A DNA stretch of 64,000 bases from Dysidea avara (taxonomy: Eukaryota; Porifera; Demospongiae; Dictyoceratida; Dysideidae): the NCBI RefSeq assembly GCF_963678975.1, contig NC_089277.1, positions 25,246,672-25,310,671 on the forward strand, in the 5' to 3' direction. A program made the position numbers and the translations under genes. Positions within the stretch are counted from its first letter, which is position 1. Every line of letters begins with the position of its first letter. This document shows positions 13,040 through 63,588 of the stretch, piece by piece. Under the pieces are notes generated by a model. That model was given only the letters and a program-made list of their open reading frames with translations. It did not search any database and had not been told where the DNA came from.

Positions 13040-13055
13040 ATATAATACATATATT

Positions 13056-31697: not shown

Positions 31698-31841
31698 TTC
31701 ATTTCTTTTTGTATTTGTATACCCCAACTATGGCCGGCTTTGAGACTTTATAACCTATCTTCTTTTTCTTTATCACAGGAAGAAGAAAAGATGAAGAAGA
31801 TGTACTTTAAATATTTTATCAGTAAATGTACAAATTATATA

Positions 31842-32092
31842 TGTGACTGGGCTTGCGAAAACAGGGCGTGTGGGCACATGATTTTTGCCTACTTTTTCAA
31901 ACGTCCTTGGCTCATAATGTTTTATACCACTATGCTATGACAATGAAACTTTTAGTACTTAGTAAGCATGTAATTGGATTTATGATGCAAGTTACAGAAT
32001 GCAAATATTCTGTTCCAGTACTGAGATATTACCTTCTGTGTGACAGGGTGTAGTTTGTGCTCACATACCCTGTTTTTGCAGGCCCGGTCACA
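31842..32092. mobile_element. 251-bp MITE with TA target duplication
   Basis: Inverted ends TGTGACTGGGCTTGCGAAAA and (reversed) TGTGACCGGGCCTGCAAAAA, ~40 bp each. The flanks are TA in an AT tract, so the exact limits are uncertain by a few bases. It sits in the same AT tract of the tail that received E2 in unit 1. Possibly Tc1/mariner-like. Confidence 0.8.
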
Positions 32093-32106
32093 TATATAAT
32101 ACATAT

Positions 32107-34290: not shown

Positions 34291-36737
34291 CTTGCAATGT
34301 AATATTACTGAGTAAATTATAAATGCAGCTGAATGCTTTATTAGGGTGACTGTTCTGTTAGAGTATCTCGATCTCGCATTTGCTGCACGTAGTTGCCTTT
34401 CGAATCATAACTCAGTGATTTGTAATCCGATTCTTCTGTACTACTGCAAGAACTTTCTATGATGATTATTCCAGCTATATACTGATTTTCAGCTCGTTGG
34501 TCTAAGCGGTTTGCCTGGTAGACACGAAAACTAATAGTTTTTTTTATTCATAAAAATCGATCGCGTAATTTTGACACTGGTTGGGTTTTGTGTCATATCT
34601 CCATGGTCTTTATCCCGATTCCTTTCAAAAAGACACTCCTACGATGGTTGCTCCATCTACATATCAAGTTTCAACTGATTCCTCCAAGGGGTTTACCCTG
34701 TAGGCGTGACTTACCTTCGACCTTATTATACGCAAATAATCGGTCATAACTCCGTGAATGGTCATCGGATTCCTACCAAAATTGGTACGGAGATCCGCCT
34801 TAATGAGACCGTTAAGTGTGCCAAATTTCAGCCCAATCCGAGCACGAATTCGTGTTTTATGGCGAATTTTGCGAAGTGTGCGAAATGAAGAAGATGAAGA
34901 AGAAAAAAAACGAAGAAATTAAAACGAAATTTTGTTCGCTCGTATCTCGGAAATGGCTAGAGCGATTTTTTTCAAATGTGGTATGTAGATTCCCCTAACT
35001 GGGCGGCACGTCTCTAGAAAATTTGGTTCCAATCGGATAAGGGATCACAGAGCTACATAGGTGTGAAAATTGCGTTTTCTTTCTTCCTGTTAATATACTC
35101 ACTGTGTGGTGCGCCGACTTCTTGGGCCGCACGACACACTACCGTGTGTCTTGATATTGACCTTGGTGCAAAGTATATACAATTCTGCTAATGGCACATT
35201 AATGTAAAGATTTGCATTTTAGTAGGCTAAGCTTGTGTCAAATATGCTATACTAGATGAGATACTATACTATACTAGATACTAATGCATAAAGCATATTA
35301 GATGGAGTGGATATAGATCGATACTCCTTAATAGAGCATTCAGTGGAAATTACAATCATAGATAATAGACAAGGGGTGTCTATTATCTGTGCTGCAATAG
35401 AGTACCCAAACGCAATAAATAGATATATTATACTCTCTAATAGTACAGCCACTTTGTGGTGAAATACTCTAAAAGAGCATTTTACTGATTAGAATATTAA
35501 TGTTCCAAGATAATTGTAAGAAATGTTGCTAACCTAGGAACATAATGCAAGCATAATGGGAACATTGAAGAGCATAATAGGTGAAAATTTGGGGAATTCC
35601 TGAAGGCGTTTTGGGCTAAATTCTGAGCATGTTTGACTCAGTCCTACATTTTAAGCATGTATTAAATTATACAGTGGAACATCGAGCTCCCTTATCTGAA
35701 CCTCTATTATCCTTGTAGTTTATATTGACCATGATAAACTTTGAGTTAGATAGAGGGAGTCTGCATTTATACAGCCCAAGGGAGTGACCATGAGTGCTAT
35801 GTAGTGATCATGACTCCCCCCTCAGCCCACTAAACTGCATATATAGCACTAACTGATAACAACATTACTTTTATTTAAGTTATAATATAGCATATAATAG
35901 CATGAATTTCTTAGTTACGTACATTTCTGAGATACAGATGGTACTATGTACCAGACTGCTCAGATAAGAGAGGTTCCACTGTAAAAGACAGGTAGCTAGG
36001 AAAGTATATATATAGTAGCTAGTTAGAATATATAGGTTCCAGCCAATCTCTAGCAGATTGTTCAATATTTTTGTAATGCTTATAATATGCTTATATACAA
36101 GTACGTGACATGAGTAAAATGTTGTAATGCAGAAAATTTATATCTTTATAGTGCAGCAACATCTCTTTTTTTTATTTGTAGACTTTAGTCATCTACAATT
36201 GTCAGTTGCATTGTAGCTAGGTGGCTAGCTAGTTGCTAACATTAGCCTTTCCAACATATGCATGCATATATATATATATATATATATATGTAACAAAATG
36301 AAGCACCATAAATAATTTTTATGAGTGCTCTATAAAGCCACATTATCGGTGTCTGTGTTGCCATCACAGTTCATTGGATCTCAGTGCATTTTTACTGGTC
36401 TCTCTCTCTATGTAGCTCACATGCATGTTTATGCTTGCATGCTGGCATGGAACTTGTCACAGGTTGGTGGATGCTTGCATGCCGGAGACAGATTTTGTTG
36501 CACCTCAGTACCAATCAGCAATTGCAGGTGTACATGTCTATATTATTATTGAATTTCCAAATTTTAAAAGAATGAAGCATGTACTGTGTATGCTTTGGTA
36601 CAGCTATGCCAAAAGGCACCTGTTGAGCTGAAATGGTCGATGTTAAGGCCCCTATTCGGTGATTATTAGTTTCTCAGCCAGCCTTTCTAATTATTATGAT
36701 GCGGGCGAGAGGGTATTACCATTATACCATTATTTTA

Positions 36738-39700
36738 TCAAGACACACGATAGTGTGTCGTGCGGCCCAAGAAGCCGGCGCGCCACACCGTGAGTATATT
36801 GACAGGAAGAACGAAAACGTCATTTTCACACCTTTGTATCTCGGTGATCACTTATCTGATTGGAACCAAATTTGCTACACAGTTGCCCGCCAGCCAAGGG
36901 AGTCTACATTCCAAATTTGAAGGAAATCGCTCCAGCCATTTCCGAGATACGAGCTGCCAAAGTTTCGTGTTTTTTTTCTTCGTTTTTTTTCTTCTTCGTC
37001 TTTTCGCACACTTGCAAAAATTGCTATAACAAGCAAACGCGTACTCCGATCGCCTTGAAATTTGGCACACAGAAAGGGAGTCCAAAGGCGAATCCTAGCA
37101 TCAAATTTGGTACAAATCCGATGAATGGTTCAGGAGTTATGACCGATTATTCGCGTAAAACAAGATCGATTTGTTGTCACGCCTACAGGATAAACCGCTT
37201 CATGGAATGAGTTGAAAATTGCTATGTAGATGGAGTAACCATCGTAGGAGTGCCTTTTAGTGGTTTGAAAGGAATCGAGATAAAGACCACGGAGATATGA
37301 CACAAAACCCAACCTGTGTCACAATTACGCGATCGATTTTTAGTAATAAAAAAAGTATTAGTTTTCACGCCTACTAGGCAAACCGCTTAGAGCAATGAGC
37401 TGAAAATCGGTGTATAGCTGGAATAATCTTCATAGAAAGTCCTTGCAGTAGAACAGAAGAATCGGATTACAAACCACTGAGTTATGATTCGAAAGCCAAC
37501 TCCGTGTAGCAAATGCGAGATCGAGATACTCTAATAGAACAGTCACCCTAATAGAGCATTCGGCTAATTTATTTACTCCATTATAGAATTTTATTACATC
37601 ACAAGTTATTCTGTAGGGAGTTCAGCTGCAAACAGTTAATCTTATAGACAGTTCAGCAAGAAGACAGTCACCATGTGGAGAGTTAAGCAAATATATCACT
37701 ATAGAGATTCAGAACATTACAAGTCACACTGAAGAAAGTTCAGCTATAAACAAGTCATGCACTGTGTAGAGAATTCAGCTACAATTAAGTCACTCTCTAG
37801 AGAATTCAGTTACACAGAATTCAGCTACACACAAGTCACTGTGGAGAGAGTTCAGCTACAAACAAATTACCCTTTAGGGTGATCAGCTACAAACAAAACA
37901 CTTTGCAGGGTGTTCAGCTGAAACAAATCAACCTTTAGAGCGATCAGCAATGAACAAATCAACACAAATCTACCTGTAGAGAGATCAGCTAGAAACAAAT
38001 CACCCTGAAGAGAGTTCAGCTACAAAAAATCACCCTGTAGAGACATCAGCTAGAAACTAGACACAATGTAAGGAGTTCAGCTACAAGCAATCACCCTGTA
38101 GAGAGTTCAGCTAAAACAAATCAACCTGCAGAGAGATCAGCTACAAACAAATCACCTTATAGAGAGTTCAGCTACAAACAGATTACCTGTAGATAGATCG
38201 GCTACTAACAAATCAACCTGCAGAGAGATCAGCTACACACAAATCACCCTGTAGAGAGATCAGCTAGAAACTACACACAATGTAAGGAGTTCAGCTACAA
38301 ACAAATCACCCTGTAGAGAGATCAGCTACAAACTAGACACAAAGTAAGGAGTTCAGCTACAAGTAAATTACCCTGTAGAGAGTTGATCTACAAACAAATC
38401 AACCTGTAGAGCAATCAGCTAGAAACAAATCACCCTGAAGAGAGGTCAGCTACAAAAAATAACCCTGTAGAGAGATCAGCTAGAAACAAATCACCCTGAA
38501 GAGAGGTCAGCTACAAAAAATCACCCTGTAGAGAGATCAGCTACAAACAAATTGCCCTGTAGAGAGATCAGCTACAAGCAAAACACCCTGTAGAGAGTTC
38601 AGCAACAAAGAAACCACCATGTAGAGAGTTCAGCTACAAACAAATTACCCTATAGAGAGATCGGCTACAAACAAATCAGCCTGTAGAGAGTTCAGCTAAA
38701 ACAAATCAACCTGCAGAGAGATCAACTACAAACAAATCACCTTATAGAGAGTTCAGCTACAAACAAATTACCCTATAGAGAGATCGGCTACAAACAAATC
38801 AACCTGCAGAGAGATCAGCTACACACAAGTCAACTTATAGAGAGATCAACTACAAACAAATCACCCTGTAGAGAGATCAGCTAGAAACTACACACAATGT
38901 AAGGAGTTCAGCTACAAATAAATCACCCTGTAGAGAGTTCAGCTAAAACAAATCAACCTGCAGAGAGATCAGCTACAAACAAATCACCTTTTAGACAGTT
39001 CAGCTACGAATAAATTACCTTGTAGAGAGATCGGCTACAAACAAATCAACCTGCAGAGAGATTAACTACACACAATTCAACTTGTAGAGAGATCAGCTAG
39101 AAACTAGACACAATGTAAGGAGTTCAGCTACAAGCAAATCACCGTGTAGAGAGATCAGCTAGAAACTAGACACAATGTAAGGAGTTCAGCTACAAGCAAA
39201 TCACCGTGTAGAGAGTTCAGCTACAAACAAACCAACCTGTGGAGCAATCAGCTAGAAACAAATCACCCTGAAGAGAGGTCAGCTACATAAAATCACCCTG
39301 TAGAGATATCAGCTAGAAACAAATCACCCTGAAGAGAGGTCAGCTACAAACAAAACACTTTGCAGAGAATTCAGCTACAAACAAATCAGCTTGTAGAGAG
39401 ATCAGTTACACACAAATCAACCTGTAGAGAGATAAGCTAGAAACAAATCACCCTGTAGAGAGTAGCTACAAGCAAAACACCCTGTAGAGAGTTCAGCAAC
39501 AAAGAAACCACCATGTAGAGAGTTCAGCTGCAAACAAATCACCTTATAGAGAGTTCAGCTACAAACAAATCACCCTGTAGAGAGATCAGCTAGAAACTAG
39601 ACACAATGTAAGGAGTTCAGCTACAAGCAAATCACCCTTTAGTGAGTTCAGCTACAAACAAATCAACCTGCAGTGAGATCACCTACATAAAAGCACCTTG

Positions 39701-41928
39701 TACAGAGTTCAGCTACAAACAAATTACCCTGTAGAGAGATCGGCTACAAACAAATCAACCAGTAGAAAGATCAGCTACACACAAATCAACTTGTAGAGAG
39801 ATCAGCTACAAACAAATCACCCTGTAGAAAGATCAGCTAGAAACTAGACACAATGTAAGGAGTTCAGCTACAAGTAAATCACCCTGTAAAGAGTTCAGCT
39901 AAAACAAATCAACCTGCAGAGAGATCAGCTACAAATAAATCACTTTACAGACAGTTCAGCTACAAACAAATTACCTTGTAGAGAGATCGGCTGCAAATTA
40001 ATCAACCTGCAGAGAGATCAGCTACACACAAATCAACTTGTAGAGAGATCAGCTACAAACAAATCACCCTGTAGAGAGATCAGCTAGAAACTAGATACAA
40101 TGCAAGGAGTTCAGCTACAAGCAAAATCGCCCTTTAGTGAGTTCAGCTACAAACAAATCAACCTGCAGTGAGATCACCCACAAAAACGCACTTGTACAGA
40201 GTTCAGTTACAAACAAATCACCCTGTAGAGAGATCAGGTAGAAGAATTCACCTTGTAGAGAGTTCAGCAACAAAGAAACCACCATGTAGAGAGTTCAGCT
40301 GCAAACAAATCACCCAGTAGAAAGATCAGCTAGAAGAAGTTACCTTGTAGAGAGTTCAGTTACAAAGAAACCATCATATTGAGAGTTCAGCTACAAAGAA
40401 ATTACCCCGTAGAGAGTTCAGCTAGAAGAAGTCACCTTGTAAAGAGTTCAGCTACAAAGAAACCATCATGTACAGAGTTCAGCTACAAAGAAACCACCTG
40501 TACAGAATTCAACTACAAACAAATTACCCTGTATAGAGATCAGCTAGAACAAGTTACCTTGTAGATAGTTCAGCTTCAACAATTCACCCTGTAGAAAGAT
40601 CAGCTAGAAGAAGTCACCTTGTAGAGTGTTCAGTTACAAAGAAACCATCATGTAGAGAGTTCAGCTGTAAACAAATCACTCTGTAGAGAGTTCAGCTACA
40701 AAGAAACCGCCATGTAGAGAGTTCAGCCTCATACAAACCACCTTGTAGAGAATTCAACTACAACAAATCACCCTGTAGAGAAGAAGTTACCTTGTAGAGA
40801 GTTCAGCTACAAAGAAACCACCTAGTAGAGAGTTTAGCTGCAAACAAATCACCTGTAGAGAGTTCAGCTAGAAACAAATCACCCCGTAGAGAGATCAGCT
40901 GGACGAAGTCACCTTGTAGAGAGTTCAGCTACAAAGAAACCATCATGTAGAGAGTTCAGCTGCAAACAAATCACCCTACAGAGAGTTCAGCTACAAAAAA
41001 TCACCCTGTAGAGAGTTCAGCTAGATGAAGTCACCTTATAGAGAGTTCAGCTACAAAGAAACCATCATGTAGAGAGTTCAGCTGCAAACAAATCACCCTA
41101 CAGAGAGTTCAGCTACAAAAAATCACCCTGTAGAGAGTTCAGCTAGATGAAGTCACCTTATAGAGAGTTCAGCTACAAAGAAACCATCATGTAGAGAGTT
41201 CGGCTACAAAGACACCACCATGTAGAGAGTTTAGCTGCAAACAAATCACCTGTAGAGAGTTCAGCTAGAAACAAAATACCCTGTAGAGAGACCAGCTAGA
41301 AGAGGTTACCTTGTAGAGAGTTCAGCTACAAAGAAACCATCCTGTATATAGTTCAGCTACATTTCAAGTCACCTAGTAGAGAGATCAGCTGCAAAAAAAT
41401 ACCCTGTGGGGAATAATGGGCATGTAATAAATATATGTATATAATTTGTATAATTACTAATAAAATCAAAAATAATTGAAGTACTAAAATTCTTCTTTAA
41501 GTTCTTTTCTTCTTCCTGTAGTAAAGAAAAAAACACATGGGTTAAAAAGCCCCAAAGCCAGCCATAGGCCGGCTTTGCAGTATACAAATACAAAAAGAAG
41601 TGATATCTAATCAAAACAGCCAAGCTGTAAAAAAAAGGTGCGGCCCCCAAAAAGGCCATGGTGAAAAAAGATGTGAAATCCAAGGTGGCAGCCAAGAAAT
41701 GGCTGTGATGGTAGGTTAATGGTTACATTTTAATAACGGCAATTCAGGTGAATTTTGTGTCGCTTGGTCTTGGCACCAAATTCACCTGAATTGTTGTTAT
41801 TAAAATGTAACCATTAACCTACCATCACAGCCATTTCTTGGCCGCCACCTTGGATTTCACATCTTTTTTCACCATGGCCTTTTTGGGGGCCGCACCTTTT
41901 TTTTACAGCTTGGCTGTTTTTGATTAGA
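36738..41928 (+). mobile_element. satellite element E4 (plus orientation, inside the Harbinger MITE)
   Basis: Starts TCAAGACACACGATAGTGTG after an A and ends GATTAGA before a T. Conserved block 36738-37565, satellite about 37600-41400, tail 41410-41604, palindrome 41605-41929. Length 5191 bp. Its satellite is rich in CAAACAAATC and GAAACTAGACACAATGTAAG variants that are scarce in E2. Confidence 0.9.
37600..41400 (+). repeat. satellite array of E4
   Basis: About 120 monomers of ~30 bp. Several higher-order blocks recur, for example around 40920-41180, where a ~120-bp run is repeated nearly exactly. Confidence 0.94.
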
Positions 41929-44231: not shown

Positions 44232-45065
44232 TCAAGACGCACAGTAGTGTGTCGTGCGGCCCAAGAAGCCGGCGTGCCACCCGTGAGTATGTTAACAGGA
44301 AGAAAGAAAACGCAATTTTCACACCTATGTAGCTCTGTGATCCCTTATCCGATTGGAACCACATTTGCTACAGACGTGCCGGCCAGCTAGGGGAGTCTAC
44401 ACACCAAATTTGAAGAAAATCGCTCCAGCCATTGCCGAGATACGAGCGAACAAAATTTCGTTTTAATTTCTCGTTGTTTTCTTCTTCTTCTACTTCTTCA
44501 TTTCGCACACTTCGCAAAATCCGCCATAAAACACGAATGCGTGTTCGGATCGGGCTGAAATTTGGCACACTTAAAGGGCTCATTAAAGCGGATCTCTGTA
44601 CCAACTTTGGTAGGAATGCGATGAACATTCACGGAGTTATGACCGATCATTTGCGTAAAATAAGGTCGAAGGTCTGTCACGCCTACAGGGTAAACTCCTT
44701 TGAAGAATCAGTTGAAAATTGATATGTAGATGGAGCAACCATCGTAGGAGTGCCTTTTTGTGGTTTGAAAGGAATCGGGATAAAGACCATGGAGATATGA
44801 CACAAAATCCGATCTGTGTCAAAATTACGCGATCGATTTTTATGAATAAAAAAACTATTAGTTTTCGTGTCTACCAGGCAAACCGCTTAGAGCAACGAGC
44901 TGAAAATCAGTGTGTAGCTGGAATAATTATCATAGAAAGTCCTTGCAGTAGTACAGAAGAATCGGATTACAAACCACTGAGTTATGATTCGAAAGACAAC
45001 TACGTGTAACAAATGCGAGATCGAGATACTCTAATAGAACAGTCACCCTAATAAAGCATTCAGCT
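44232..45065 (+). other. conserved ~830-bp block of the E family (E5 copy as example)
   Basis: Present in all six elements next to the hairpin end. Two diverged ~170-bp modules lie in tandem. Each has CACGCCTAC or GTCTACCAGG, then GTAAAC or CAAACCGCTT, then GAGCTGAAAAT, a TGGAG or TGGAA stretch, and a closing GAGATATGAC or GAGTTATGAT. Open frames with LKFGT, GVMTD and CHAYRVN recur in E2, E4 and E5 but carry no known domain. The block ends at the ATACTCTAATAGAGCAGTC-type motif just before the satellite. Confidence 0.6.
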
Positions 45066-45109
45066 GCATGTATAATTTACTCAATTATATTACATTGCAA
45101 GTTATTCTG

Positions 45110-48100
45110 TAGGGAATTCAGCTACAAACAAGTCACCCTGTAGTCAGATCAGCTAGAAGAAGGTACCTTATAGAGGGTTCAGCTACAAAGAAGCCATCAT
45201 GTAGAGAGTTCAGCTCAAATAAATCACCCTGTAGAGAATTCAGCTACAAACAAATTACCCTGTAGAGAGATCAGCTAGAAGAAGTTACCTTGTAGAGAGT
45301 TCAGTTACAAAGAAACAATCATGCAAAGAGTTTAGCTGCAAACAAATCACTGAGTAGAAAGTTCCGCTATGAACAGATCACACTGTAGAGAATTCAGTTA
45401 AAAACAAGTCATCTTGTAGAGAGATCAGCTAGAAGAAGTTACCTTGTAGGGGGTTCAGCTACGAACAGATCACCGTGTAGAGAGTTCAGCTACAAACAAA
45501 TCACCCTGTAGAGAGTTCAGCTACAAACAAATCACACTGTAGAGAGTTCAGTTAGAAAAAAGTCATCTTGTAGAGAGATCAGCTAGAAGAAGTCACATTG
45601 TAGAGAGTTAAGCTACAAAGAAACTACCATGTAGAGAGTTCAACTGCAAACAAATCACCGTGTAGAGAACTCAGCTACAAACAAATATTCCCTGTAGAAA
45701 GATCAGCTAGAAGAGTTACCTTGTAGGGTGTTCAGCTACGAACAGATCACCTTGTAGAGAGTTCAGCTACAAACAAATAACCATGTAGAGAGTTCAGCTG
45801 CAAAAAAATCAATCACTCTGTAGAGAGTTCAGCTAGAAGAAGTCACCTTGTAGAGAGTTCAGCTGCAAATAAATCACCTTGTAGAGAATTCAGCTACAAA
45901 CAAATATTCCCTGTAGAAAGATCAGCTAGAAGAGTTACCTTGTAGGGTGTTCAGCTACGAACAGATCACCTTGTAGAGAGTTCAGCTACAAACAAATCAC
46001 CATGTAGAGAGTTTAGCTGCAAAAAAATCAATCACTCTGTAGAGAGTTCAGCTAGAAGAAGTCACCTTGTAGAGAGTTCAGCTGCAAATAAATCACCTTG
46101 TAGAGAATTCAACTACAAACAAATCACCCTGGAGAAAGATCAGCTAGAAGAAGTTACCTTGTAGAGAGTTCAGCTACAAAGAAACCACCATGTAGAGAGT
46201 TCAGCTGCAAACAAATCATCTGTAGAGAGTTCAGCTAGAAACAAGTCACCCTGTAGAGAGATCAGCTAGAAACAAGTCACCCTGTAGAGAGTTCAGCTAG
46301 AAGAAGTCACATCGGAGAGAGCTCAGATACAAAGAAACTACCATGTAGAGAGTTCAGCTGCAAACAAACACCCTGTAGAGAACTCAGCTACACACAAATA
46401 TTCCCTGTAGAGAGATCAGCTAGAAGAAGTTACCTTGTAGGGAGTTCAGCTACGAACAGATCACCCTGTAGAGAGTTCAGCTACAAACAAATCACCCTGT
46501 AGAGAGTTCAGTTACAAAGAAACCACCATGTAGAGTTCAGCTGCAAAAAAAATCAATCACTCTGTAGAGAGTTCAGCTAGAAGAAGTCACCTTGTAGAGA
46601 GTTCAGCTGCAAATAAATCACCTTGTAGAGAATTCAGCTACAAACAAATCACCCTGTAGAAAGATCAGCTAGAAGAAGTTACCTTGTAGAGAGTTCAGCT
46701 ACAAAGAAACCACCATGTAGAGAGTTCAGCTGCAAACAAATCACCTGTATAGAGTTCAGCTAGAAACAAGTCACCCTGTAGAGAGATCAGCTAGAAACAA
46801 GTCACCCTGAGTTCAGCTAGAAACAAGTCACCCTGTAGAGAGATCAGCTAGAAACAAGTCACCCAGTAGAGAGTTCAGCTAGAAGAAGTCACATTGTAGA
46901 GAGTTCAGCTACAAAGAAACTACCACGTAGAGAGTTCAGCTGCAAAGAAACACCCTGTAGAGAACTCAGCTACAAACAAATCGCCCTGTAGAAAGATCAG
47001 CTAGAAGAAGTTACCTTGTAGGGAGTTCAACTACAAACAAATCACCCTGTAGAGAGTTCAGCTGCAAACAAATCACCTGTAGAGAGTTCAGCTAGAAACA
47101 AGTCACCCTGTAGAGAGATCAGCTAGAAACAAGTCACCTTGTAGAGAGTTCAGCTAGAAGAAGTCACATTGTAGAGAGTTCAGCTACAAGCAAATCACCT
47201 GTAGAGAGTTTAGCTACAAACAAATCACCCTGTAGAGAGATCAGCTAGAAGAAGTCACCTTGTAGAGAGTTCAGCTATAAAGAAACCACCATGTAGAGAG
47301 TTCAGCTAGAAACAAGTCACCCTGTAGAGAGATCAGCTAGAAACAAGTCACCCTGTAGAGAGTTCAGCTAGAAGAAGTCACATTGTAGAGAGTTCAGCTA
47401 CAAAGAAACTACCATGTAGAGAGTTCAGCTGCAAACAAATCACCCTGAAGAGAACTCAGCTACAAACAAATTGCCCTGTAAAAAGATCAGCTAGAAGAAG
47501 TTACCTTGTAGGGAGTTCAGCTACGAACAGACTAGTCTCGCGTGCCAGACGGTTTGTGTGGGGGCGGCAAATAAACCGTCTGGTCACTGTTGCACACATT
47601 CCGGGACCACTGCCGGAATGTTGGCAGAGCCAATCAGATCGCTTCGCGCACTCTGTGACGAAACAACCACTAATAATTCAAATTCTTAGTGTAATAAAGA
47701 ACTGAATCTCGGCTACAGATCACTTTTTCGAAAGTTTAACAACGCCATGGGCTTAGGATCTTTGTTTCCCTAGTACAGGGCTCTTAAAAGTGTTCGTATA
47801 AGAACGATCGTGGTTCGCTACGGATTTGTGAAACGACAGAATTGTCGAGGAAGACGTTCAGCAATGTTTCGAATACGTCACCAGGACATTACCAGTACAA
47901 TTATTGTCTTAGTCTGCTCAAAGAGGTGATTGGAACGATTATTGCATCATCCTTGGCGTAAAACAATGCCGTGATGTAATCTAATTGTATTCCAGTGAGT
48001 TCACGGAAAGTGTGCAACAGTGACCAGACGGTTTATTTTCCGCCCCCCACACAAACCGTCTGGCACGCGAGACTACGAACAGACCACCCTGTAGAGAGTT

Positions 48101-48590
48101 CAGCTACAAACAAATCACCCTGTAGAGAGTTCAGTTACAAAGAAACCACCATGTAGAGAGTTCAGCTGCAAACAAATCATCCTGTAGAGAGTTCAGCTAC
48201 GAAAAGATCACCTTGTAGAGAGTTCAGCTAGAAGAAGTCGCCTTTTTGAAAGTTCAGCTACAAAGCAACCACCATGTAGAGAGTTCAGCTGCAAACAAAT
48301 CACCCTGTAGAGAATTCAGCTACAAACAAATCGCCCTGTAGAGAGACCAGTTAGAAACAAGTCACCCTGTAGACAGATCAGCTAGAAGATTTTACCTTGT
48401 AGAGAGTTCAGCTGACAAATCACCCTGTAGAGAATTCAACTACAAACAGATAACCCTGCAGAGAGTTCAGCTAGAGTCAAGTCACCCTGTAGAGAGAATC
48501 CTGTAAAGAGTTCATCCACGTACAAGCAAATCACCCTGTAGAGAGTTCAGCTACATTTCAAGTCACCCAGTAGAGAGATCAGCTGCAAAT
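45110..48590 (+). repeat. satellite array of E5 (interrupted)
   Basis: 30-31-bp monomers on both sides of the insertion 47533-48075. A higher-order block of about 240 bp repeats at 45650-45890 and 45890-46130. Confidence 0.94.
47533..48075. mobile_element. Mutator-like foldback element, 543 bp
   Basis: Inverted ends of ~70 bp start TAGTCTCGCGTGCCAGACGG and are flanked by the exact 9-bp duplication CGAACAGAC (47524-47532 and 48076-48084). Each end also holds an inner hairpin, CCAGACGGTTT paired with AAACCGTCTGG. No ORF of note. A 9-bp duplication suggests the Mutator superfamily. Confidence 0.88.
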
Positions 48591-48784
48591 TATCTTGTGG
48601 GGATTAATTGACATGTAATAAATATATGCTATAATTTGTACATTTACTGATAAAATCAGAATGAGTTAAAGTATTTATAAAATCTGCTTCATCTTTTTCC
48701 TGTGGTAAAGAAAAAAATAGGTTAAAAAGTCCCGAAGCTGGCCATAGGCCAGCTTTTGGGTATACAAATACAAAAAGAAGTGAA

Positions 48785-49114
48785 ATCTAATCAAAAACAG
48801 CCAAGCTGTAAAAAAAGGAGTGCGGCCCTTGAAAAGGCTATGGTGAAAAAAGATGTGAAATCCAAGGTGGCGGCCAAGAAATGGCTGTGATGGTAGGTTA
48901 ATGGTAAAATTTTAATAACAACAATTCAGGTGAATTTTGTGCCAATTGACCAAGCGGCACCAAATTCACCTGAATTGTTGTTATTAAAATTTTTACCATT
49001 AACCTACCATCACAGCCATTTCTTGGCCGCCACCTTGGATTTCACATCTTTTTTCACCATAGCCTTTTCAAGGGCCACACTCCTTTTTTACAGCTTGGCT
49101 GTTTTTGATTAGAT
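48785..49114. repeat. terminal palindrome of E5
   Basis: Same family as 7864-8189. Centre around AATTGACCAAGCGGC near 48944. Confidence 0.85.
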
Positions 49115-50280: not shown

Positions 50281-50608
50281 AGCTCATACATGAAGGAGAT
50301 GCAAAAAAGTGAAAAAATAAAGTAAGGAGAACCAACCTCCTGACCATCCCTATATGTTAGTCTAGATGGCCCACCACAAATACAACCATAAAATTTAAAG
50401 GGCATTGCTTTATTTACCTTATATGGGTGCATAAAGTAGCAAAATTTTGCATCTTTATGTGCCCATATAAGGTAGAAAAAGGAAAGCCCCTCATTTTTTA
50501 TGATGATATTTGTAGTGGGCCACCTAGACTAACATATATAGGGATGGTCAGGAGGTTGCTTCTCCTTACATCATTTTTTCACTTTTTTGCATCTTCATGT
50601 ATGAGCTA
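50281..50608. repeat. ~330-bp hairpin inside the foldback element
   Basis: Ends GCTCATACATGAAG and CTTCATGTATGAGC. The arms mirror each other with a centre near 50430-50450 (GCAAAATTTTGC). Possibly a separate MITE that landed at the LINE tail. Confidence 0.8.
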
Positions 50609-50868
50609 AAAATGCAGTGCAACAACGAAAATATCTTTGATATCAACTTCACAGTACAGTTCTATACATGCAAGGTGCTTATTTACCGGTTCCTGCACTT
50701 TAGCACTGGTGCATTTCTTGCAGAAGCATAAAATCTACTGGTGGGCATGGCTAAATAAAAATAAATGGAGTTCGAAAATACCGCCAAATATCGTAAGGCC
50801 CGTACTCCCTCTATGCTAAAGATATCAAAACAATTTTCTGGTCATTGGTAGCTAATGAACACAGGTAT

Positions 50869-51130
50869 ATTGTACATAAATTTGAAAAAAATTGGGAATT
50901 GATTTCTGGTAGTAAAACGCAATGTTCGTAAATGGATGGTTTTGTTCGAACCTGGAATTTATCGAACCTTGCATACTATTAGCTGCAGCTCTCACGCTAT
51001 TAATCCTACATACCTGATTATTGGAGGATAATTGCTGCTTAGTGTAGGCTACTTTGTGGTATAATAACCTAAGCTGTTGAATTTCCATGAAGTGAGTGGC
51101 AGCTGATCGAAAATCATAGTTGACTCTAAT
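50869..51130. repeat. right arm of the large inverted repeat
   Basis: Inverse of 43688-43884 and 44165-44225, lacking the ~280 extra bases of the left arm. Confidence 0.65.
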
Positions 51131-52172: not shown

Positions 52173-55100
52173 GAGTTACCGCTCCTACACCGTACGCAAG
52201 GAAATTCAAGGACCATTAACACAAGAATCGTTTGACTTTTTTGGTCAAATCCACTTGGTGAACCATCCGGTGGTTGCTGCATATGGAATAGTGAGAGAAC
52301 TGAGAAAGAGGTAAAAACACTTGGCTGTGACAGTGACACACTATAAGGCTATAATATATGTAGTAGCTACAAGGCTGGCGTATATGGGTTGGCCGTGTTC
52401 TGGCTTGGGCCACACCACTTCTTGGATACACATTATCACTCATGATACTCTAGACATCATCATCTCTGAACTTGAAGTTATTGTTTTTATCTGACCAAAG
52501 TTTCCATTGGTCCTGCATCTAGGCAGTAGGCAGCCACCCATTATAAATATTGAATAATGCTCTATTAAAATATTTCACTTCAAAAAGTGACAGATCTGTT
52601 AGAGCTAAGGAGCTATGTACAATGCATTTGAGTGCTCTATGTATTTCAGTTTGCATTTTCCACTGACTGCTCTATTAGGGAGTACCAATCTATTTTCAAG
52701 TAATTGACCCCATGGTTTGAAATATCCACCTAATATGCTAGCATAGGACTCCAGCCTATTATGCTTTATTATGCTGGCATATTTGACACATGCCAGTAAT
52801 TGTACTGCACTACCGCATGGGGTATTTGATATATGGTGTTCCATTGGCCCATTGTGAACACAAAATGACCCACACATCTCATAGCTTCTGCTCCAATTTT
52901 CTCAGCAGTAGTTCAGCTTTGTCACTAATACACATCAAACATAAGCTGATTGGCCCAGTGGTATACTACTGGTGGAGCAGTAGATGTCTGGGTTGGGCTA
53001 GTTTGGCTCAGAGTTGAAATACTTATCAAAAACCCTACTACTGCATGTAATCAGAGTACATCATTCACTTTCATGGTCAATAGCAGTAGTAATGATCTCT
53101 GTGTACATTAGAAATCCATGCTTTGGACGAGGACCAGAAGAAGACAGTCATGAAGCATTGAGGTGTTTATTGGATGGCCTGAAAATGGAAGAAATTGATG
53201 TAAGTACAATACTGACCCTGCTCTTCTGGTTTATCTGCAGCCAATTAAAATGATCATTTAATTGTTTTCATTGTAATTGTATTTTCTATTGGTCTGTCAG
53301 AGTAGTTGTATCACCATTAATTATATAGTAAAGGAATGACCCAATTATTCCAACATTTGACTAGTTTGTTCCTCTGATCACATGACATGATGAAGAAAAA
53401 GTTTTTTGCTCTCTTATATTAGTGACTGGATTTGTGAAAAGAAGCCTTCCACACACATCCAATTCTATGAACTTGGAAGACCATAACTTAAGTTTCAAGA
53501 AAGATACAAACAAAAAAGTGGCCATCTCAGCAAAACCCCAACTTGTTCGCACATGAGACCAACAATGTTTTAAAACAATTATGCATGCTAAAATGAAAAA
53601 AATACGTAATTTTTATTGGGCCATTACTCAGAGAAAGAAGACTCAAATCAACTAAAACAATACACCATCTTATTTGCCGAGCTCTTTGTTTTGGTTCTGT
53701 AGCCCCAACGGTATGCATGTCACGTGCATTTATTTACGATGCTGTAAAACATAAACAAGATTGTCATCATTTCTTCAACTAAACTGCCTTCACACCCATA
53801 TATGTAAGTGACTACAGGGCTAATACTACAAGTAGAAGGAAAAATTAGGAATTTTAAGCTGGATTAGGGATCAAAGAACAAAAAAACAGGGAAACAAGGG
53901 AACAGCTAAAATGTTATGAAACAAGGGAGGTTGCCTATACCTGCAGATATACTAGTGGACATCTAATCCCTACTCTTCAGTCTACATGTATAACCATGAC
54001 TGAATCAAACAGTGCAGTAGTACAGTTTAAGTAGGGATCCCTCAAAAGTTTCATGCGGTTCCCAAAATTCCACCTTCAAATATCATCATCCTAGAGACAT
54101 TTTATGCGACAAAAATCACCTTTACGGAATAGTACTAGTCCATATCAGAGTTGAAACCGGGTCACTACTGCTGACCCGGATGACCCATTGACCCGGATAG
54201 CAATCCGGGTCAGACCGGATTTGACCCGGATTAATTAAAGCTGAGGCGTGCGATAAGAGCTATGTTTTGGCTAGTCTCGAACGAGCGAGTGAAACTACAT
54301 TTTGAGCGTTCGATTCATGTTGAGTAAACAGGGGCAGATCGAGACTTTTAAAAAGGGGGGGGGGGGGGTTTCACTTTGGAATTGCAACTTCAGCCTAGTT
54401 GCAGGTTGAAGACAAAAAAAAAAAAAAAAAGGTCATCACCTACTGACAATAGCTACCCCTCACCATAGATACTCTCAGTTTTGTGCTACATACTGCACTT
54501 ACTAATAAATGAGCGTGGCTGAGCGTACAAGCTTAATATATTAGCTACATTATTATTCTAAAGGAGACAGGTGCATGCCCCTCAGCAACAGCAAGGTCGA
54601 CAGCTGGAGGCACACAGGAATGCTTGGATCTAGAACGTGATCCCCTGATACACAATTTACTGAAGAGTGCAACAAGGAGAAAAGCGAAGCCTGCCCATAA
54701 CCACAGAATATAGGGAACTCCACTGCTCATTGAGAAAAAGTGCAAGATGTTTATAAGTGATGGTATCTACCTTCCACATACCTACAGATGTGGAAAATAC
54801 AGGTGGACTAATACAAGTTACTTTGTAGCTAGCTGTGCCATAACTAAATAAACTAGTATTTTAAATAATTAATTAAGTAGGGATCTATGCAATAAAAAAG
54901 TAATGAAACAAGAGATGAATGATGGTGTTACAGCAGAGCTCAGTGGGAAAGTCTCTACTTTGGCACATTAGCTATTATTATTTTGTTCAATGCCAAAGTA
55001 GGGACTTCCCACTGAGCTATGCTGTAACACCATCATTCATCTCTTGTTTCACTACTCTTTATTGCATAGATCCCTACTTCATATCTAAATTAACAATTAA

Positions 55101-58100
55101 AAAAAATACTAGCTAGGGATTACATGTCCACTAGTATATCTGCAATCCAGCTTATAATTCCTAATTTTTCCTTCTACTTGTTTGTTTACTTTTTATAACA
55201 CAATTATGACTACTGAATCCATATGTACCACATTAAAAGAAAGAATGGTGCCAGGCATTCCATAAAATAATTTTCCATCAGTCTGAACGTGAATTCCAAT
55301 AATCAATTATGCACTGAAAAGTGAGGTTACCATTACGCTTCATTTGTAGCTATGCTCCGCTTGTTACACAGCATTTCAAATGAAGAACAGTACAAGAAAC
55401 GTCTCTGCAATGAATCCAGTCGCTAGGGAAAATGTAGATGAAAGCATGACAAGGGACCAAAGAAAAAAAAGCAGGGAAACAAAGGAACAGCTAAAAGTTG
55501 TGAAACAAGAGAAGTTTCCTATACCTCAGCCAGAGGGAAGCCATATTGCACTATCACAAATTGACACCTTGCATTGTCAGCAAAAAGAACTCAAATACAA
55601 AGGAGGACAAAGGTAAGTCCATGGTACATGCATTGTACTTACTGTACATGTGGTTGATGAAAAGGCACATCTCGGGACAAAGTGACGTTGAACAGTGAAA
55701 AAATCAAACCCTTAGCCTTATCCATTGTCAAATTATGCTTGGCTGAAGGCATCAGTTGGTTAGTCAGTAGATAATTAAGTTAAGTAGGAAATTTTTAAAA
55801 TTCTATAGAAACCTGTTTGAAGGGTTTAGGGTCACTCTAAAGGAATTTTTGGGCTTGGCTATGCCTAACAAATACTGCCAAGCTGTTATGAAGGAAATTT
55901 GAGGCTGGTTTAAGGGTAATATTTTTGGGAAAGAAAGCCCAAAACTGCATGATCCCTGTAATGGTTGATTTGCTAATCTATGGTGAACATATTAAACCAA
56001 ATTCCAATATTGTAGACTAATGCAAACGGAAGTTGTGGCTGCATATGTAAGAGCCTGTAGTTAATTTAGTCACTGTACAAATCGGTTTTTTCTCTCTCTC
56101 TTTCTACTCTAATTCCAAAACTACGCACCACAATAGGTTAAAAAACTTTGGTAATCCATCGCTAGACAATGCTGAAAAAAACCTGAAAATTGTGCAAGCA
56201 AGTCAGGTTTTGTTGAGATGGTTACAAATACAATTTGTATTATTTTTTACCCTGAACAGAAAATCAAAGAATTCTTTTATGCTAAATATAAGTATGGAGT
56301 CACTAAAGATCCTGATTCTCAGAAGCATCTTGATGGAGAAGATAAGTTGATGTTAAAACGTTAGAAGACATCATTAATTTTGTATTCAGCAACATGCATC
56401 CACAATAAAATTTCATAACTAGTAACCTGTACGATTCTTTGTCTTTTTACCATTACCTTGTGACCACAGAATATTTACGTCTGGCTGCTAAACAGAAAAT
56501 TCCTATTGAAACCATAGTTGGTGGGGCACAAGTTAGCACTTCAATCTGCTGAGAATGCTGCATGGTAAGTCCTACTGTCTGTATGAAATATGTTGAGAAT
56601 ACTGTACTTAAGCTGTGTAATCTTTTTGTAGGCTATTCAAAATGAAGAAAACTTTTTGACATCTCTCTCTCTCTTTGCCAGCAATTAAGGTATGATATTT
56701 ACTACAAATTGATAAGATCTATTACAATACGTATAAATGTACATATCTTGTACAGACCAAAAGTTATCTGTAATTGTGCTATCTATAGCCACACACGGTA
56801 TCTGAGTATGCTATCTAATCACTGTCCAAAAGTGGAACACACAATCATGGTGATGATATTCTTATTGCCAACGAGTCTAGTGTCCCACCTGTATTGGACA
56901 GATCTACAAATATGAGTGTTATTGTACATGTAGATTCAGAAGTTCCAGTTGGAAATTATCACTCCCAAGAAGATGAACAACAGTATGGAGATGATACTGG
57001 TGTACACTATGTTACTGCTGAAGGTGATTTTCCTTCTGCACATAATTCTTCTGTTAATAATATCTAATCAAAAACAACCAAGCTGTAAAAAAAGATGCGG
57101 CCCCCATAAAGGCCATGGTGAAAAAAGATGTGAAATCCAAGGTGGCGGCCAAGAAATGGCTGTGATGGTAGGTTAATGGTTACATTTTAATAACAACAAT
57201 TCAGGTGAATTTGGTGCCAAGACCAAGCGGCACAAAATTCACCTGAATTGCCGTTATTAAAATGTAACCATTAACCTACCATCACAGCCATTTCTTGGCC
57301 GCCACCTTGGATTTCACATCTTTTTTCACCATGGCCTTTATGGGGGCCGCACCTTTTTTTACAGCTTGGCTGTTTTTGATTAGATATCACTTCTTTTTGT
57401 ATTTGTATACTGCAAAGCCGGCCTATGGCTGGCTTTGGGGCTTTTTTAACCCATGTGTTTTATTCTTTACTACAGGAAGAAGAAAAGAACTTAAAGAAGA
57501 ATTTTAGTACTTCAATTATTTTGATTTTATTAGTAATTATACAAATTATATACATAATATATTTATTACATGCTCATTATTCCCCACAGGATTTTTTTTG
57601 CAGCTGATCTCTCTACTGGGTGACTTGAAATGTAGCTGAACTATATACAGGATGGTTTCTTTGTAGCTGAACTCTCTACAAGGTAACCTCTTCTAGCTGG
57701 TCTCTCTACAGGATATTTTGTTTCTAGCTGAACTCTCTACAGGTGATTTGTTTGTAGCTAAACTCTCTACATGGTGGTGTCTTTATAGCCGAACTCTCTA
57801 CATGATGGTTTCTTTGTAGCTGAACTCTCTATAAGGTGACTTCGTCTAGCTGAACTCTCTACAGGGTGATTTTTTTGTAGCTGAACTCTCTGCAGGGTGA
57901 TTTGTTTGCAGCTGAACTCTCTACATGATGGTTTCTTTGTAGTTGAACTCTCTACAAGGTGACTTCGTCCAGCTGATCTCTCTACGGGGTGATTTGTTTC
58001 TAGCTGAACTCTCTACAGGTGAATTGTTTGCAGCTAAACTCTCTACATGGTGGTTTCTTTGTAGCCGAACTCTCTACAAGGTAACTTATTCTCTACAGGA

Positions 58101-61100
58101 TGATTTGTTGTAGTTGAATTCTCTACAAGGTGGTTTGTATGAGGCTGAACTCTCTACATGGCGGTTTCTTTGTAGCTGAACTCTCTACAGAGTGATTTGT
58201 TTGCAGCTGAACTCTATACATGATGGTTTCTTTGTAACTGAACACTCTACAAGGTGACTTCTTCTAGCTGATCTTTCTACAGGGTGAATTGTTTTAGCTG
58301 AACTATCTACAAGGTAACTTCTTCTAGCTGATCTCTATACAGGGTGATTTGTTTGTAGTTGAATTCTGTACAGGTGGTTTCTTTGTAGCTGAACTCTGTA
58401 CATGATGGTTTCTTTGTAGCTAAACTCTTTACAAGGTGACTTCTTCTAGCTGAACTCTCTACAGGGTAATTTCTTTGTAGCTGAACTCTCTATATGATGG
58501 TTTCTTTGTAACTGAACTCTGTACATGGTAACTTCTTCTAGCTGATCTTTCTACTGGGTGATTTGTTTGCAGCTGAACTCTCTACATGGTGGTTTCTTTG
58601 TTGCTGAACTCTCTACAAGGTGAATTCTTCTACCTGATCTCTCTACAGGGTGATTTGTTTGTAACTGAACTCTGTACAAGTGCGTTTTTGTGGGTGATCT
58701 CACTGCAGGTTGATTTGTTTGTAGCTGAACTCACTAAAGGGTGATTCTGCTTGTAGCCGAACTCCCTGCATTGTATCTAGTTTCTAGCTGATCTCTCTAC
58801 AGGGTGATTTGTTTGTAGCTGATCCCTCTACAAGTTGATTTGTGTGTAGCTGATCTCTCTGCAGGTTGATTAATTTGCAGCCGATCTCTCTACAAGGTAA
58901 TTTGTTTGTAGCTGAACTGTCTATAAAGTGATTTATTTGTAGCTGATCTCTCTGCAGGTTGATTTGTTTTAGCTGAACTCTCTACAGGGTGATTTACTTG
59001 TAGCTGAACTCCTTACATTGTGACTAGTTTCTAGCTGATCTCTCTACAGGGTGATTTGTTTGTAGCTGATCTCTCTACAAGTTGATTTGTGTGTAGCTGA
59101 TCTTTCTACTGGTTGATTTGTTTGTAGCCAATCTCTCTACAGGGTAATTTGTTTGTAGCTGAACTCTGTACAAGGTGCTTTTTTGTAGGTGATCTCACTG
59201 CAGGTTGATTTGTTTGTAGCTGAACTCACTAAAGGGTGATTTGCTTGTAGCTGAACTCCTTACATTGTGTCCAGTTTCTAGCTGATCTCTCTACAGAGTG
59301 ATTTGTTTGTAGCTGAACTCTCTATAAGGTGATTTATTTGTAGCTGAACTCCTTACATTGTGTGTAGTTTCTAGCTGATCTCTCTACAGGGTGATTTGTT
59401 TGTAAATGATCTCTCTACAAGTTGATTTGTGTGTAGTTGATCTCTCTGCAGGTTGATTTTTTGTAGCCGATCTCTCTATAGGGTAATTTGTTTGTAGCTG
59501 AACTCTCTATAAGGTGATTTGTTTGTAGTTGATCTCTCTGCAGGTTGATTTGTTTTAGTTGAACTCTCTACAGGCTGATTTGTTTGTAGCCGATCTCTCT
59601 ACAGGGTAATTTGTTTGTAGCTGAACTCTCTACAAGTTGATTTGCGTGTAGCTGATCTCTCTGCAGGTTGATTTGTTTGTAGCCGATCTCTCTGCAGGGC
59701 AATTTGTTTGTAGCTGATCTCTCTACAGGGTGATTTTTTTGTAGCTGACCTCTCTTCAGGGTGATTTGTTTCTAGCTGATCTCTCTACAGGGTGATTTTT
59801 TGTAGCTGACCTCTCTTCAGGGTGATTTGTTTCTAGCTGATTGCTCTACAGGTTGATTTGTTTGTAGATGAACTCTCTACAGGGTAATTTGCTTGTAGCT
59901 GAACTCCTTACTTTGTGTCTAGTTTGTAGCTGATCTCTCTACAGGGTGATTTGTTTGTAGCTGATCTCTCTACAAGTTGATTTGTGTGTATATAGCTGAT
60001 CTCTCTGCAGGTTGATTTGTTTGTAGCCGATCTCTCTACAGGTAATCTGTTTGTAGCTGAACTCTCTATAAGGTGATTTGTTTGTAGCTGATCTCTCTGC
60101 AGGTTGATTTGTTTTAGCTGAACTCTCTACAGGGTGATTGCTTGTAGCTGAACTCCTTACATTGTGTCTAGTTTCTAGCTGATGTCTTTACAGGGTGATT
60201 TTTTTGTAGCTGACCTCTCTTCAGGGTGATTTGTTTCTAGCTGATTGCTCTACAGGTTGATTTGTTTGTAGATGAACTCTCTACAGGGTAATTTGCTTGT
60301 AGCTGAACTCCTTACTTTGTGTCTAGTTTGTAGCTGATCTCTCTACAGGGTGATTTGTTTGTAGCTGATCTCTCTACAAGTTGATTTGTGTGTATATAGC
60401 TGATCTCTCTGCAGGTTGATTTGTTTGTAGCCGATCTCTCTACAGGTAATCTGTTTGTAGCTGAACTCTCTATAAGGTGATTTGTTTGTAGCTGATCTCT
60501 CTGCAGGTTGATTTGTTTGTAGCTGAACTCACTAAAGGGTGATTTGCTTGTAGCTGAACTCCTTACATTGTGTCCAGTTTCTAGCTGATCTCTCTACAGA
60601 GTGATTTGTTTGTAGCTGAACTCTCTATAAGGTGATTTATTTGTAGCTGAACTCCTTACATTGTGTGTAGTTTCTAGCTGATCTCTCTACAGGGTGATTT
60701 GTTTGTAAATGATCTCTCTACAAGTTGATTTGTGTGTAGTTGATCTCTCTGCAGGTTGATTTTTTGTAGCCGATCTCTCTATAGGGTAATTTGTTTGTAG
60801 CTGAACTCTCTATAAGGTGATTTGTTTGTAGTTGATCTCTCTGCAGGTTGATTTGTTTTAGTTGAACTCTCTACAGGCTGATTTGTTTGTAGCCGATCTC
60901 TCTACAGGGTAATTTGTTTGTAGCTGAACTCTCTACAAGTTGATTTGCGTGTAGCTGATCTCTCTGCAGGTTGATTTGTTTGTAGCCGATCTCTCTGCAG
61001 GGCAATTTGTTTGTAGCTGATCTCTCTACAGGGTGATTTTTTTGTAGCTGACCTCTCTTCAGGGTGATTTGTTTCTAGCTGATCTCTCTACAGGGTGATT

Positions 61101-63588
61101 TTTTGTAGCTGACCTCTCTTCAGGGTGATTTGTTTCTAGCTGATTGCTCTACAGGTTGATTTGTTTGTAGATGAACTCTCTACAGGGTAATTTGCTTGTA
61201 GCTGAACTCCTTACTTTGTGTCTAGTTTGTAGCTGATCTCTCTACAGGGTGATTTGTTTGTAGCTGATCTCTCTACAAGTTGATTTGTGTGTATATAGCT
61301 GATCTCTCTGCAGGTTGATTTGTTTGTAGCCGATCTCTCTACAGGTAATCTGTTTGTAGCTGAACTCTCTATAAGGTGATTTGTTTGTAGCTGATCTCTC
61401 TGCAGGTTGATTTGTTTTAGCTGAACTCTCTACAGGGTGATTGCTTGTAGCTGAACTCCTTACATTGTGTCTAGTTTCTAGCTGATGTCTTTACAGGGTG
61501 ATTTTTTTGTAGCTGAACTCTCTTCAGAGTGATTTGTTTCTAGCTGATCTCTCTACAGGTAGATATGTGTTGATTTGTTCATTGCTGATCGCTCTAAAGG
61601 TAATTGATTTGTTGCAGTTGAACACCCTGCAAAGTGTTTTGTTTGAAACTGATCACTCTAAAGGGTAATTTGTTTGTAGCTGAACTCTCTCCACAGTGAC
61701 TTGTGTGTAGCTGAATTCTGTGTAACTGAATTCTCTAGAGAGTGACTTAATTGTAGCTGAATTCTCTACACAGTGCATGACTTGTTTATAGCTGAACTTT
61801 CTTCAGTGTGACTTGTAATGTTCTGAATCTCTATAGTGGTATATTTGCTTAACTCTCCACATGGTGACTGTCTTCTTGCTGAACTGTCTATAAGATTAAC
61901 TGTTTGCAGCTGAACTCCCTACAGAATAACTTGTGATGTAATAAAATTCTATAATGGAGTAAATAAATTAGCCGAATGCTCTATTAGGGTGACTGTTCTA
62001 TTAGAGTATCTCGATCTCGCATTTGCTACACGGAGTTGGCTTTCGAATCATAACTCAGTGGTTTGTAATCCGATTCTTCTGTACTACTGCAAAGACTTTC
62101 TATGAAGATTATTCCAGCTATACACCGATTTTCAGCTCATTGCTCTAAGCGGTTTGCCTAGTAGGCGTGAAAACTAATACTTTTTATTCATAAAAATCGA
62201 TCGCGTAATTGTGACACAGGTTGGGTTTTGTGTCATATCTCCGTGGTCTTTATCTCGATTCCTTTCAAACCACTAAAAGGCACTCCTACGATGGTTAATC
62301 CATCTACATAGCAATTTTCAACTCATTCTATGAAGCGGTTTACCCTGTAGGCGTGACAACAAATCGATCTTGTTTTACGCGAATAATCGGTCATAACTCC
62401 TGAACCATTCATCGGATTTGTACCACATTTGATGCTAGGATTCGCCTTTGGACTCCCTTTCTGTGTGCCAAATTTCAAGGCGATCGGAGCACGCGTTTGC
62501 TTGTTATAGCAATTTTTGCAAGTGTGCGAAAAGACGAAGAAGAAGAAAAAAAAAAAACGAAGAAAAAAAAAACGAAACTTTGGCAGCTCGTATCTCGGAA
62601 ATGGCTGGAGCGATTTCCTTCAAATTTGGAATGTAGACTCCCTTGGCTGGCGGGCAACTGTGTAGCAAATTTAGTTCCAATCAGATAAGTGATCACCGAG
62701 ATACAAAGGTGTGAAAATGACGTTTTCGTTCTTCCTGTCAATATACTCACGGTGTGGCGCGCTGGCTTCTTGGGCCGCACGACACACTACCGTGTGTCTT
62801 GATAGTAATGGATGATGCTGAAACACACTCCAGCTTAAAGGAACACAGTACTACTACCATTGTTATTACAAATGACGAAGGAAACGAATCAAATAAAACT
62901 GTTTCTGATAACCAAAGATATCCTGTTTCTGACAAAGAGAATAGTTTGGATAGTGATGGAAAGGAATTGACCGTTGCATGCATTGATGGTTCCTCTGCTA
63001 ATAATCAACCACATATAGCCAAGTCTAGTTCCTCAAAAGAAAAGAAACCTACCAATTCAAATTTTGATAAGGAAAACAAAATACATGCACCTCCTACGAG
63101 TGATCAAGATTCTTCTATTGTAGATCAGGACAAAGGATTTAATATTGCCACATCAGTCATTACAGATCCAATGAATATGGATCAAGATGTTTTCCCATCA
63201 GATCAATATACAAACTCTTATCTCACTATTGCACAACACACTGAAGACCCCAAAGAAGATTCTAGCACATACGCTGATGCCAGACAAGATCAAGATGAAA
63301 AATTAGATCATGATGTCAAACACAATCAAGCAGATGTTGATTCTAAATTTGATAACAGTCATGCTGAGTTTAATCCAGACACAGGTCACACAGAATTTGA
63401 AGTTGTTGGTAACAAAGCAAAACTGAATAAATATCTAGAACACAAATGTATGCATTTTCAGCCAAACCATCAAATAGAAATTGAGTCATCACAATTAACA
63501 GGCTTGGAATCATCTCTACAAGATTTTACTAATTTGGACATTTTAGATGATGACAACAAATTTTTTTGCAATACTTGCACTGAAAATA
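52173..63588 (+). CDS. USP16/USP45-like ubiquitin hydrolase, partial, split by E6
   Basis: Exons seen: 52173-52310 (with EIQGPLTQESFDFFGQ), 53112-53199 (FGRGPEEDSHEALRCLLDGL; phases join as Arg), 55372-55612 (Lys-rich linker KKSRETKEQLKVVKQEKF, less certain), and an acidic exon from about 56833 to 63588 interrupted by E6 at 57063-62802. It ends SLQDFTNLDILDDDNKFFCN plus TCTEN at donor GTAAGT (63589). The wording matches the catalytic domain of USP16/USP45, which remove ubiquitin (USP16 from histone H2A). The Cys-box exon, the zinc-finger FGG/CxxC exon expected between 53199 and 55372, and everything after the first CxxC are not seen; the last lies beyond the window. The phase mismatch between 53199 and 55372 also implies a missing exon. 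As it stands this allele could not make a full protein. Confidence 0.72.
52311..53111. other. intron of the USP-like gene
   Basis: Contains a dispersed repeat at about 52640-52800, with CTGCTCTATTAGGGAGTA and ATGCTAGCATAGG...AGCATAAT-type motifs. No other feature recognised. Confidence 0.5.
54146..54530. mobile_element. broken hAT with a nested CAGGGG-family hAT
   Basis: CAGAGTTGAAACCGGGTCAC and the following bases match the left part of the element at 24543, and 54480-54525 matches its interior near 25015-25050. A truncated copy of the CAGGGGCAGATC family (see 5532-5858) interrupts it from 54329 to about 54475. Confidence 0.7.
54874..55082. mobile_element. 209-bp foldback MITE
   Basis: Ends GTAGGGATCTATGCAATAAA and its inverse. 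The arms mirror through GATGAATGATGGTGTTACAG and meet near 54975. Neighbouring AT-rich text is also partly inverted, suggesting nesting. Confidence 0.8.
55613..56832. other. intron with possible degenerate exons
   Basis: Three stretches look exon-like but are broken: 56263-56400 (after acceptor GAACAG; KIKEFFYAKYKYGVTKDPDS with a later frame change), 56473-56572 (EYLRLAAKQKIPIETIVGG, then a stop, before donor GTAAGT), and 56632-56690 (AIQNEENFLTSLSLFASN, then a stop). I do not recognise the family. They could be a decayed insert in the USP intron. Confidence 0.35.
57062..57385. repeat. terminal palindrome of E6
   Basis: Same family as 7864-8189. Centre around GCCAAGACCAAGCGGCAC near 57215. 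Confidence 0.85.
57063..62802 (-). mobile_element. satellite element E6 (minus orientation, inside the USP exon)
   Basis: Starts TCTAATCA after an A and ends GTGTGTCTTGA before a T. Palindrome 57062-57385, tail with acceptor-like site 57386-57590, satellite 57595-61925, conserved block about 61970-62802. The coding frame of the host exon resumes exactly across it if no target duplication is assumed. Length 5740 bp, the longest complete copy here. Confidence 0.93.
57595..61925 (-). repeat. satellite array of E6 with a 1.3-kb higher-order repeat
   Basis: About 140 reverse-orientation monomers. About 1.0 kb starting near 59203 recurs almost exactly from 60506 (offset 1303), and a shorter block recurs at offset ~404 (59821 and 60225). 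Confidence 0.94.

Follow-up and report, generated by a model that had tools for sequence, protein, structure and literature searches.

In AT-rich genomes, the flanks of an inserted element cannot separate a 2-bp TA duplication from a clean insertion into TATA. Among the described systems closest to the locus studied here, the HINE/DINE-1 elements are non-autonomous Helentrons (PMC4067079, PMC7492417). The insertions that Helraiser produced in cells had direct junctions, A|TC at one side and end|T at the other, with nothing duplicated, and Helraiser preferred AT-rich sites (PMC4778049). The authors of the FoHeli study faced the same register ambiguity at T/A sites that is met below (PMC5148889). 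Here we describe an inserted element, E6, that splits a coding exon; such an exon is a built-in ruler for the insertion, as the frame must close. From the sequence, we consider E6 to be probably a non-autonomous rolling-circle-type element that entered a TATA target within one coding exon of a putative USP gene, with neither duplication nor deletion.

Six related elements (E1–E6) were found by matching both ends of E6 in the window, the whole 64-kb stretch of DNA that was analysed. Their positions, together with the parts of E6, are as follows.

57063..62802, + strand: E6, the inserted element, 5740 bp, TCTAATC...CTTGA, with ends common to five other copies
57063..57384, + strand: 322-bp palindrome at the 5' end of E6, with 93.8% identity between its arms, beginning at element base 1
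57593..61719, + strand: minisatellite core of E6 with a repeat unit of about 31 bp (TRF)
62781..62798, + strand: 3' hairpin of E6, 7-bp stem and 4-nt loop, 4 nt from the element end
8332..13038, − strand: E1, nested within E2
7865..21875, + strand: E2, the outer copy, broken twice, once by E1 and once by a 5.7-kb insertion (about 13757-19506)
31372..35154, + strand: E3, duplicate of E2 from the same insertion event, with a 250-bp TIR element at the position that E1 occupies in E2
36738..41928, − strand: E4, the copy nearest to E6, within a TIR element of about 440 bp
44232..49113, − strand: E5
50590..51120, − strand: element-free paralogue of the E5 flanks, in pieces about 91-97% identical

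The family begins with TCTAATC at the 5' end and carries CGACACACTACCGTGTGTCTTGA at the other. Because the other copies show the same ends, those of E6 are known independently of the host frame, and they match the family ends base for base at both borders (...GTTAATAATA(57062)|TCTAATC... and ...CTTGA(62802)|TAGTAATGGATGATG...). Since E2 and E3 share their flanks via a segmental duplication, the six copies represent five independent insertions.

The 5' palindrome is present in each of the six copies, with a length of 322-328 bp and a within-copy arm identity of 90.8-95.8%. The 3' terminus reads CTTGA or GTTGA and is preceded by a small hairpin. In the four copies that were folded, the stem is 7 bp in E6 and E4 and weaker in the other two, E1 and E5; z is about -2 in three of the four and only -0.83 in E5; E1 entered both this folding and the end-to-end inverted-repeat comparison without its last base. 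The E6 minisatellite holds an internal repeat (59179-59478 and 60482-60781, 99% identical, 1303 bp apart). In the left arms of all six copies, the centre of the palindrome arm, which runs from AAAAAGATGTGAAATCC to AGGTTAATG over about 57 bp, shows no variation and is conserved beyond the rest of the element, which may reflect either inter-arm conversion or a candidate conserved binding site; the E2 piece used in this comparison included one base of E1. A 44-nt motif of the right module (61974-62017 in E6) also occurs outside the elements, at 5747-5790, 14823-14887, 29320-29363 and 63893-63936, and is present in the intron following the split exon. Stretches of 25 nt from the 3' end, 32 nt from the palindrome and 28 nt from the minisatellite had no exact match in viral and genome contig collections, a search of plasmid DNA returned nothing similar to the element, and a literature search that included its repeat words gave no account of it among the matches listed.

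TA lies directly outside both ends of all six copies. Outside the elements, 377 of the 3008 AT dinucleotides in the window fall in TATA (12.5%); under a bare A|T rule, the chance that five of five independent insertions would do so is about 3e-5. Given TA on both flanks, an insertion that duplicated nothing implies TATA as the target, whereas the alternative is a TA target that was duplicated. The flanks alone would suggest the latter, because TA stands on both sides of every copy, and only the frame at E6 argues against it, favoring the former. The alternative thus supposes a cut-and-paste insertion with a 2-bp duplication at a Tc1/mariner-like TA target, followed by an indel near the E6 junction that restored the frame. 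Clean insertion predicts the pre-insertion site AATAATATAGTAATG, while TA duplication predicts AATAATAGTAATG, with TA once.

The register of the insertion is ambiguous. AT|ATAG, ATA|TAG and ATAT|AG yield an identical joined sequence at E6, because the first T and the last A of the element equal the adjoining flank bases. The original prediction placed E6 between A and T, which is one of the three consistent registers, but T|A one base to either side is indistinguishable from it in all six copies.

Two further sites were considered as empty-site references and dropped: the E1 position within E2, with E3 as the reference, as the corresponding (TA)n run of E3 is occupied by a TGTGAC...GTCACA element, and E4, as it sits in another TIR element wholly absent from the segmental duplicate. 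The E1/E3 loci align best if both insertions duplicated an equal number of bases, and a duplication of TA or TATA would fit this (TA)n site. At the diverged junction of the E5 paralogue, the joins score 210 without duplication, 209 with TA duplicated and 214 with both TA pairs removed.

The segmental duplication is a tandem one (1164-24508 versus 25244-43626), with pieces 95-97.5% identical. It contains sulfotransferase-like exons, with a Sulfotransfer_1 match in the 30280-30648 copy (E 1.4e-05); Pfam gave no match on 1444-2331. The insertion at 13757-19506 lies within the E2 minisatellite, is bounded by inverted ends that span about 190 bp (80%) and carries endonuclease and reverse transcriptase frames (PF14529, PF00078). 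At 31841-32092, the TGTGAC...GTCACA element of about 250 bp in E3 occupies the same (TA)n run as E1 in E2, and the duplicated loci have thus taken two different insertions at one (TA)n site. The TIR element holding E4 (36648-36737 and 41929-42290) has GGCCCCTATTCGGTGATTATTAG ends and TTAAG flanks, and the other duplicate lacks it at 23459.

The frame at E6 belongs to a putative ubiquitin-specific protease gene, for which the following parts were recognized.

53112..53199, + strand: putative exon A, EDSHEALRCLLDG text, no PDB match
56260..56359, + strand: putative exon B, splice phase compatible with exon C, no database match
56470..56564, + strand: putative exon C, with an in-frame TGA at 56550-56552 within CxxC
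56632..56689, + strand: putative exon D, same gene, frame shifted
56833..57062, + strand: left part of exon E, following the acceptor AAAAG
62803..63588, + strand: right part of exon E, ending at the donor A|GTAAGT, with last codons FFCNTCTEN that resemble a USP finger

On the left, the frame is open from stop to stop over 56819-57061; on the right, no stop interrupts it between the junction and the donor after 63588. E6 itself brings a TAA, at 57065-57067, two codons in. With 57062 joined directly to 62803, exon E comprises 230 + 786 = 1016 nt and 338 whole codons with no stop, and the translation reads ...SSVNN-IVMDDAETHS... across the junction, as had been claimed for the two sides and for their join. 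Counted after the last intact left codon, a stop arises in codon 2 if one base is dropped, in codon 4 if two are dropped, as the TA-duplication model requires, and in codon 2 if four are dropped (both TA pairs). The early stop foreseen for the TA-duplication join was therefore confirmed, at the fourth codon. Since the exon frame continues only without duplication, the host gene appears to record the mode of insertion.

Because putative exon C has a stop and putative exon D a frameshift, the premise of an otherwise intact exon needs evidence from codon usage. Scored by the codon frequencies of the right half, the left 75 codons reach 0.41 per codon, a value attained by none of 1107 open 75-codon stretches elsewhere in the window (best 0.03), although these stretches overlap and are not independent. 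Close to the junction, with training on the right half, the score per codon on the left is 0.75 over the final 5 codons, 0.58 over 10 and 0.56 over 30. On the right, with training on the left half together with right codons 61 onward, it is 0.81 over the initial 5 codons, 0.47 over 10 and 0.31 over 30. The two alternative frames score below zero on either side in windows of 10, 20 and 30 codons. As the coding signal reaches the junction from both sides, and in that frame only, a hidden intron or a compensating indel there is unlikely. The best reading of the sequence is that the two halves are one exon, with few codons of room for a compensating indel, and both would lie in one exon of the transcript. 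The shared ends, the open frame and the codon score on both sides thus support the original prediction that E6 interrupts a former single exon.

These results also weigh on TA duplication. The in-frame join is the one without duplication, and a join that keeps TA only once breaks the frame. The coding signal on either side confines the required indel to about five codons, and its probability, as we infer from one frameshift in about 1.27 kb of putative exons B-E, is estimated at about 1%. Moreover, the element ends are not mutual inverted repeats, with a longest match between the first and last 60 nt of 6-9 bp that is not terminal. On the other hand, exon D already has one frameshift, the TATA context recurs in five independent insertions, and the argument against duplication comes from a single locus in a damaged gene, with the E1/E3 site compatible with duplication. 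For these reasons, a duplicated TA with a restoring indel is improbable but keeps an appreciable weight. The earlier claim of no target duplication is accordingly favored by the frame over TA duplication, but TA stands on both flanks and the E1 and E5 sites do not decide. If clean insertion is true, classifying such families by their flanks alone goes wrong.

It might also be supposed that the halves were never contiguous and that E6 landed at the edge of an exon or within a short intron, the in-frame join being a matter of luck (one in three). The TAG at 62803-62805 is usable as an acceptor, with GT donors in phase at 57000 and 57024, but the high codon score up to the junction on both sides leaves no ancestral intron of normal length, and we regard such a history as unlikely. 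Alternatively, E6 may be spliced out as a new intron, from the donor at 57024 or 57000 to the AG at the junction, with 14 or 22 codons lost in frame. The splice phases match; however, the splice sites are weak, and the lesions in exons C (stop) and D (frameshift) would persist, making this very unlikely.

The identity of the host gene was assigned with less strength. Exon A, with its EDSHEALRCLLDG text, is presumably USP-like, and the gene may be a USP16/45, a deubiquitinase with a long acidic insert in its USP catalytic domain. For the last 36 residues before the donor, all three PDB chains at E up to 10 were USP46, with weak E of 0.13-0.14, and the putative upstream-exon read-through gave one PDB match, USP35, in the same finger region (weak E, 0.83). 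Pfam searches of the exon halves, ten pieces and the read-through gave no USP family, and four of the ten pieces gave weak, unrelated Pfam matches. Two weak but concordant PDB matches and the splice phases thus tentatively suggest a USP gene.

Apart from E6, this copy carries two lesions, a stop (exon C) and a frameshift (exon D), implying that it is either multiply broken or affected by assembly errors. The shift in exon D sits in a T run, as uncorrected long-read errors or an assembly artefact at the junction or in the exons could explain. Nevertheless, both ends of E6 agree with the family ends in every base and exon E is stop-free over its 338 codons; such an artefact or such errors, at the junction or in the exons, are highly improbable.

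Clean insertion into TATA within the exon therefore remains our preferred reading. In this process, E6 would have been moved by single-stranded rolling-circle transfer of the HUH Rep/Helicase type, with the enzyme supplied in trans; no RepHel gene was seen within the window. The rolling-circle reading is suggested by the asymmetric hairpin ends, the 5'-TC start, the flanking A and T and the probable lack of duplication. The TC start beside a flanking A is found in all six copies, with the register assumed.

We compared the family with known systems. Helraiser/Helibat and E6 share the A|TC...|T junction, in E6 probably likewise without duplication, a 3' hairpin and AT-rich surroundings (PMC4778049). 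In contrast to the canonical Helitron 3' CTRR, all six copies end in TTGA followed by a flanking T, and the 18-nt hairpin of E6 and E4 lies 4 nt from the end, whereas the canonical palindrome is 16-20 nt long and about 11 nt from it (PMC4778049). The large 5' palindrome of E6 and the lack of RepHel in the window also differ from Helraiser/Helibat as canonical Helitrons (PMC4778049). The family is Helitron-like in its TC start, flanking A/T and hairpin, but not in its 3' terminus or hairpin distance.

Spy of the PHIS group inserts without duplication, as in our reading of E6, but targets AAATTT rather than TATA, and ISL2EU of the same group duplicates AT in AT-rich targets (A|AT|T), while the E target would be TATA; the E ends, unlike those of Spy and ISL2EU, are not terminal inverted repeats (PMC4482050). 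A flanking TA, as in Tc1/mariner-like elements, is present in six of six copies, and no Tc1/mariner-like terminal inverted repeats were found in the first and last 60 nt of the copies.

The Helitron2-type FoHeli elements resemble the E copies in their hairpins at both ends and in the register ambiguity at T/A sites, and FoHeli1/2 likewise start with TC; however, FoHeli1/2 end in ATTTT and insert at TNAT|A, whereas E6 ends in CTTGA (PMC5148889). The asymmetric inverted repeat of the Helitron2 type (PMC5148889) is weak in the E copies, with 8-9 bp in three of six. These subterminal repeats occur in E3, E4 and E6 (equalled by 4, 3 and 13 of 300 shuffles, respectively), and those of 6-7 bp in E1, E2 and E5 are not unusual relative to shuffles. 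HINE/DINE-1 elements share with E6 the lack of a transposition coding sequence, central tandem repeats, a 3' palindrome and, in our reading of E6, no target duplication, and their architecture of a left module, tandem repeats and a right module with a terminal palindrome is matched by E6 (PMC4067079, PMC7492417). Unlike the E copies, which have A/T flanks in TATA in six of six cases and a 322-328-bp palindrome from base 1, HINEs favor TT or T-rich sites and carry subterminal repeats of 12-15 bp at a distance of 2-4 nt from the 5' end (PMC4067079, PMC7492417).

Because the family lacks CTRR, the canonical hairpin distance and a TT target, and the subterminal repeat is convincing in only three of six copies, we do not file the family as Helitron or HINE. 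It is conceivable, though we hold it only tentatively, that it forms a distinct rolling-circle-type lineage that recognizes TATA, inserts at its centre without duplication and has a 5' end consisting wholly of the 322-328-bp palindrome; in such a lineage, a folded single-strand 5' end would replace the short unstructured TC end. The nearest known kind appears to be HINE/Helitron2, and the E element probably works like these without being a member.
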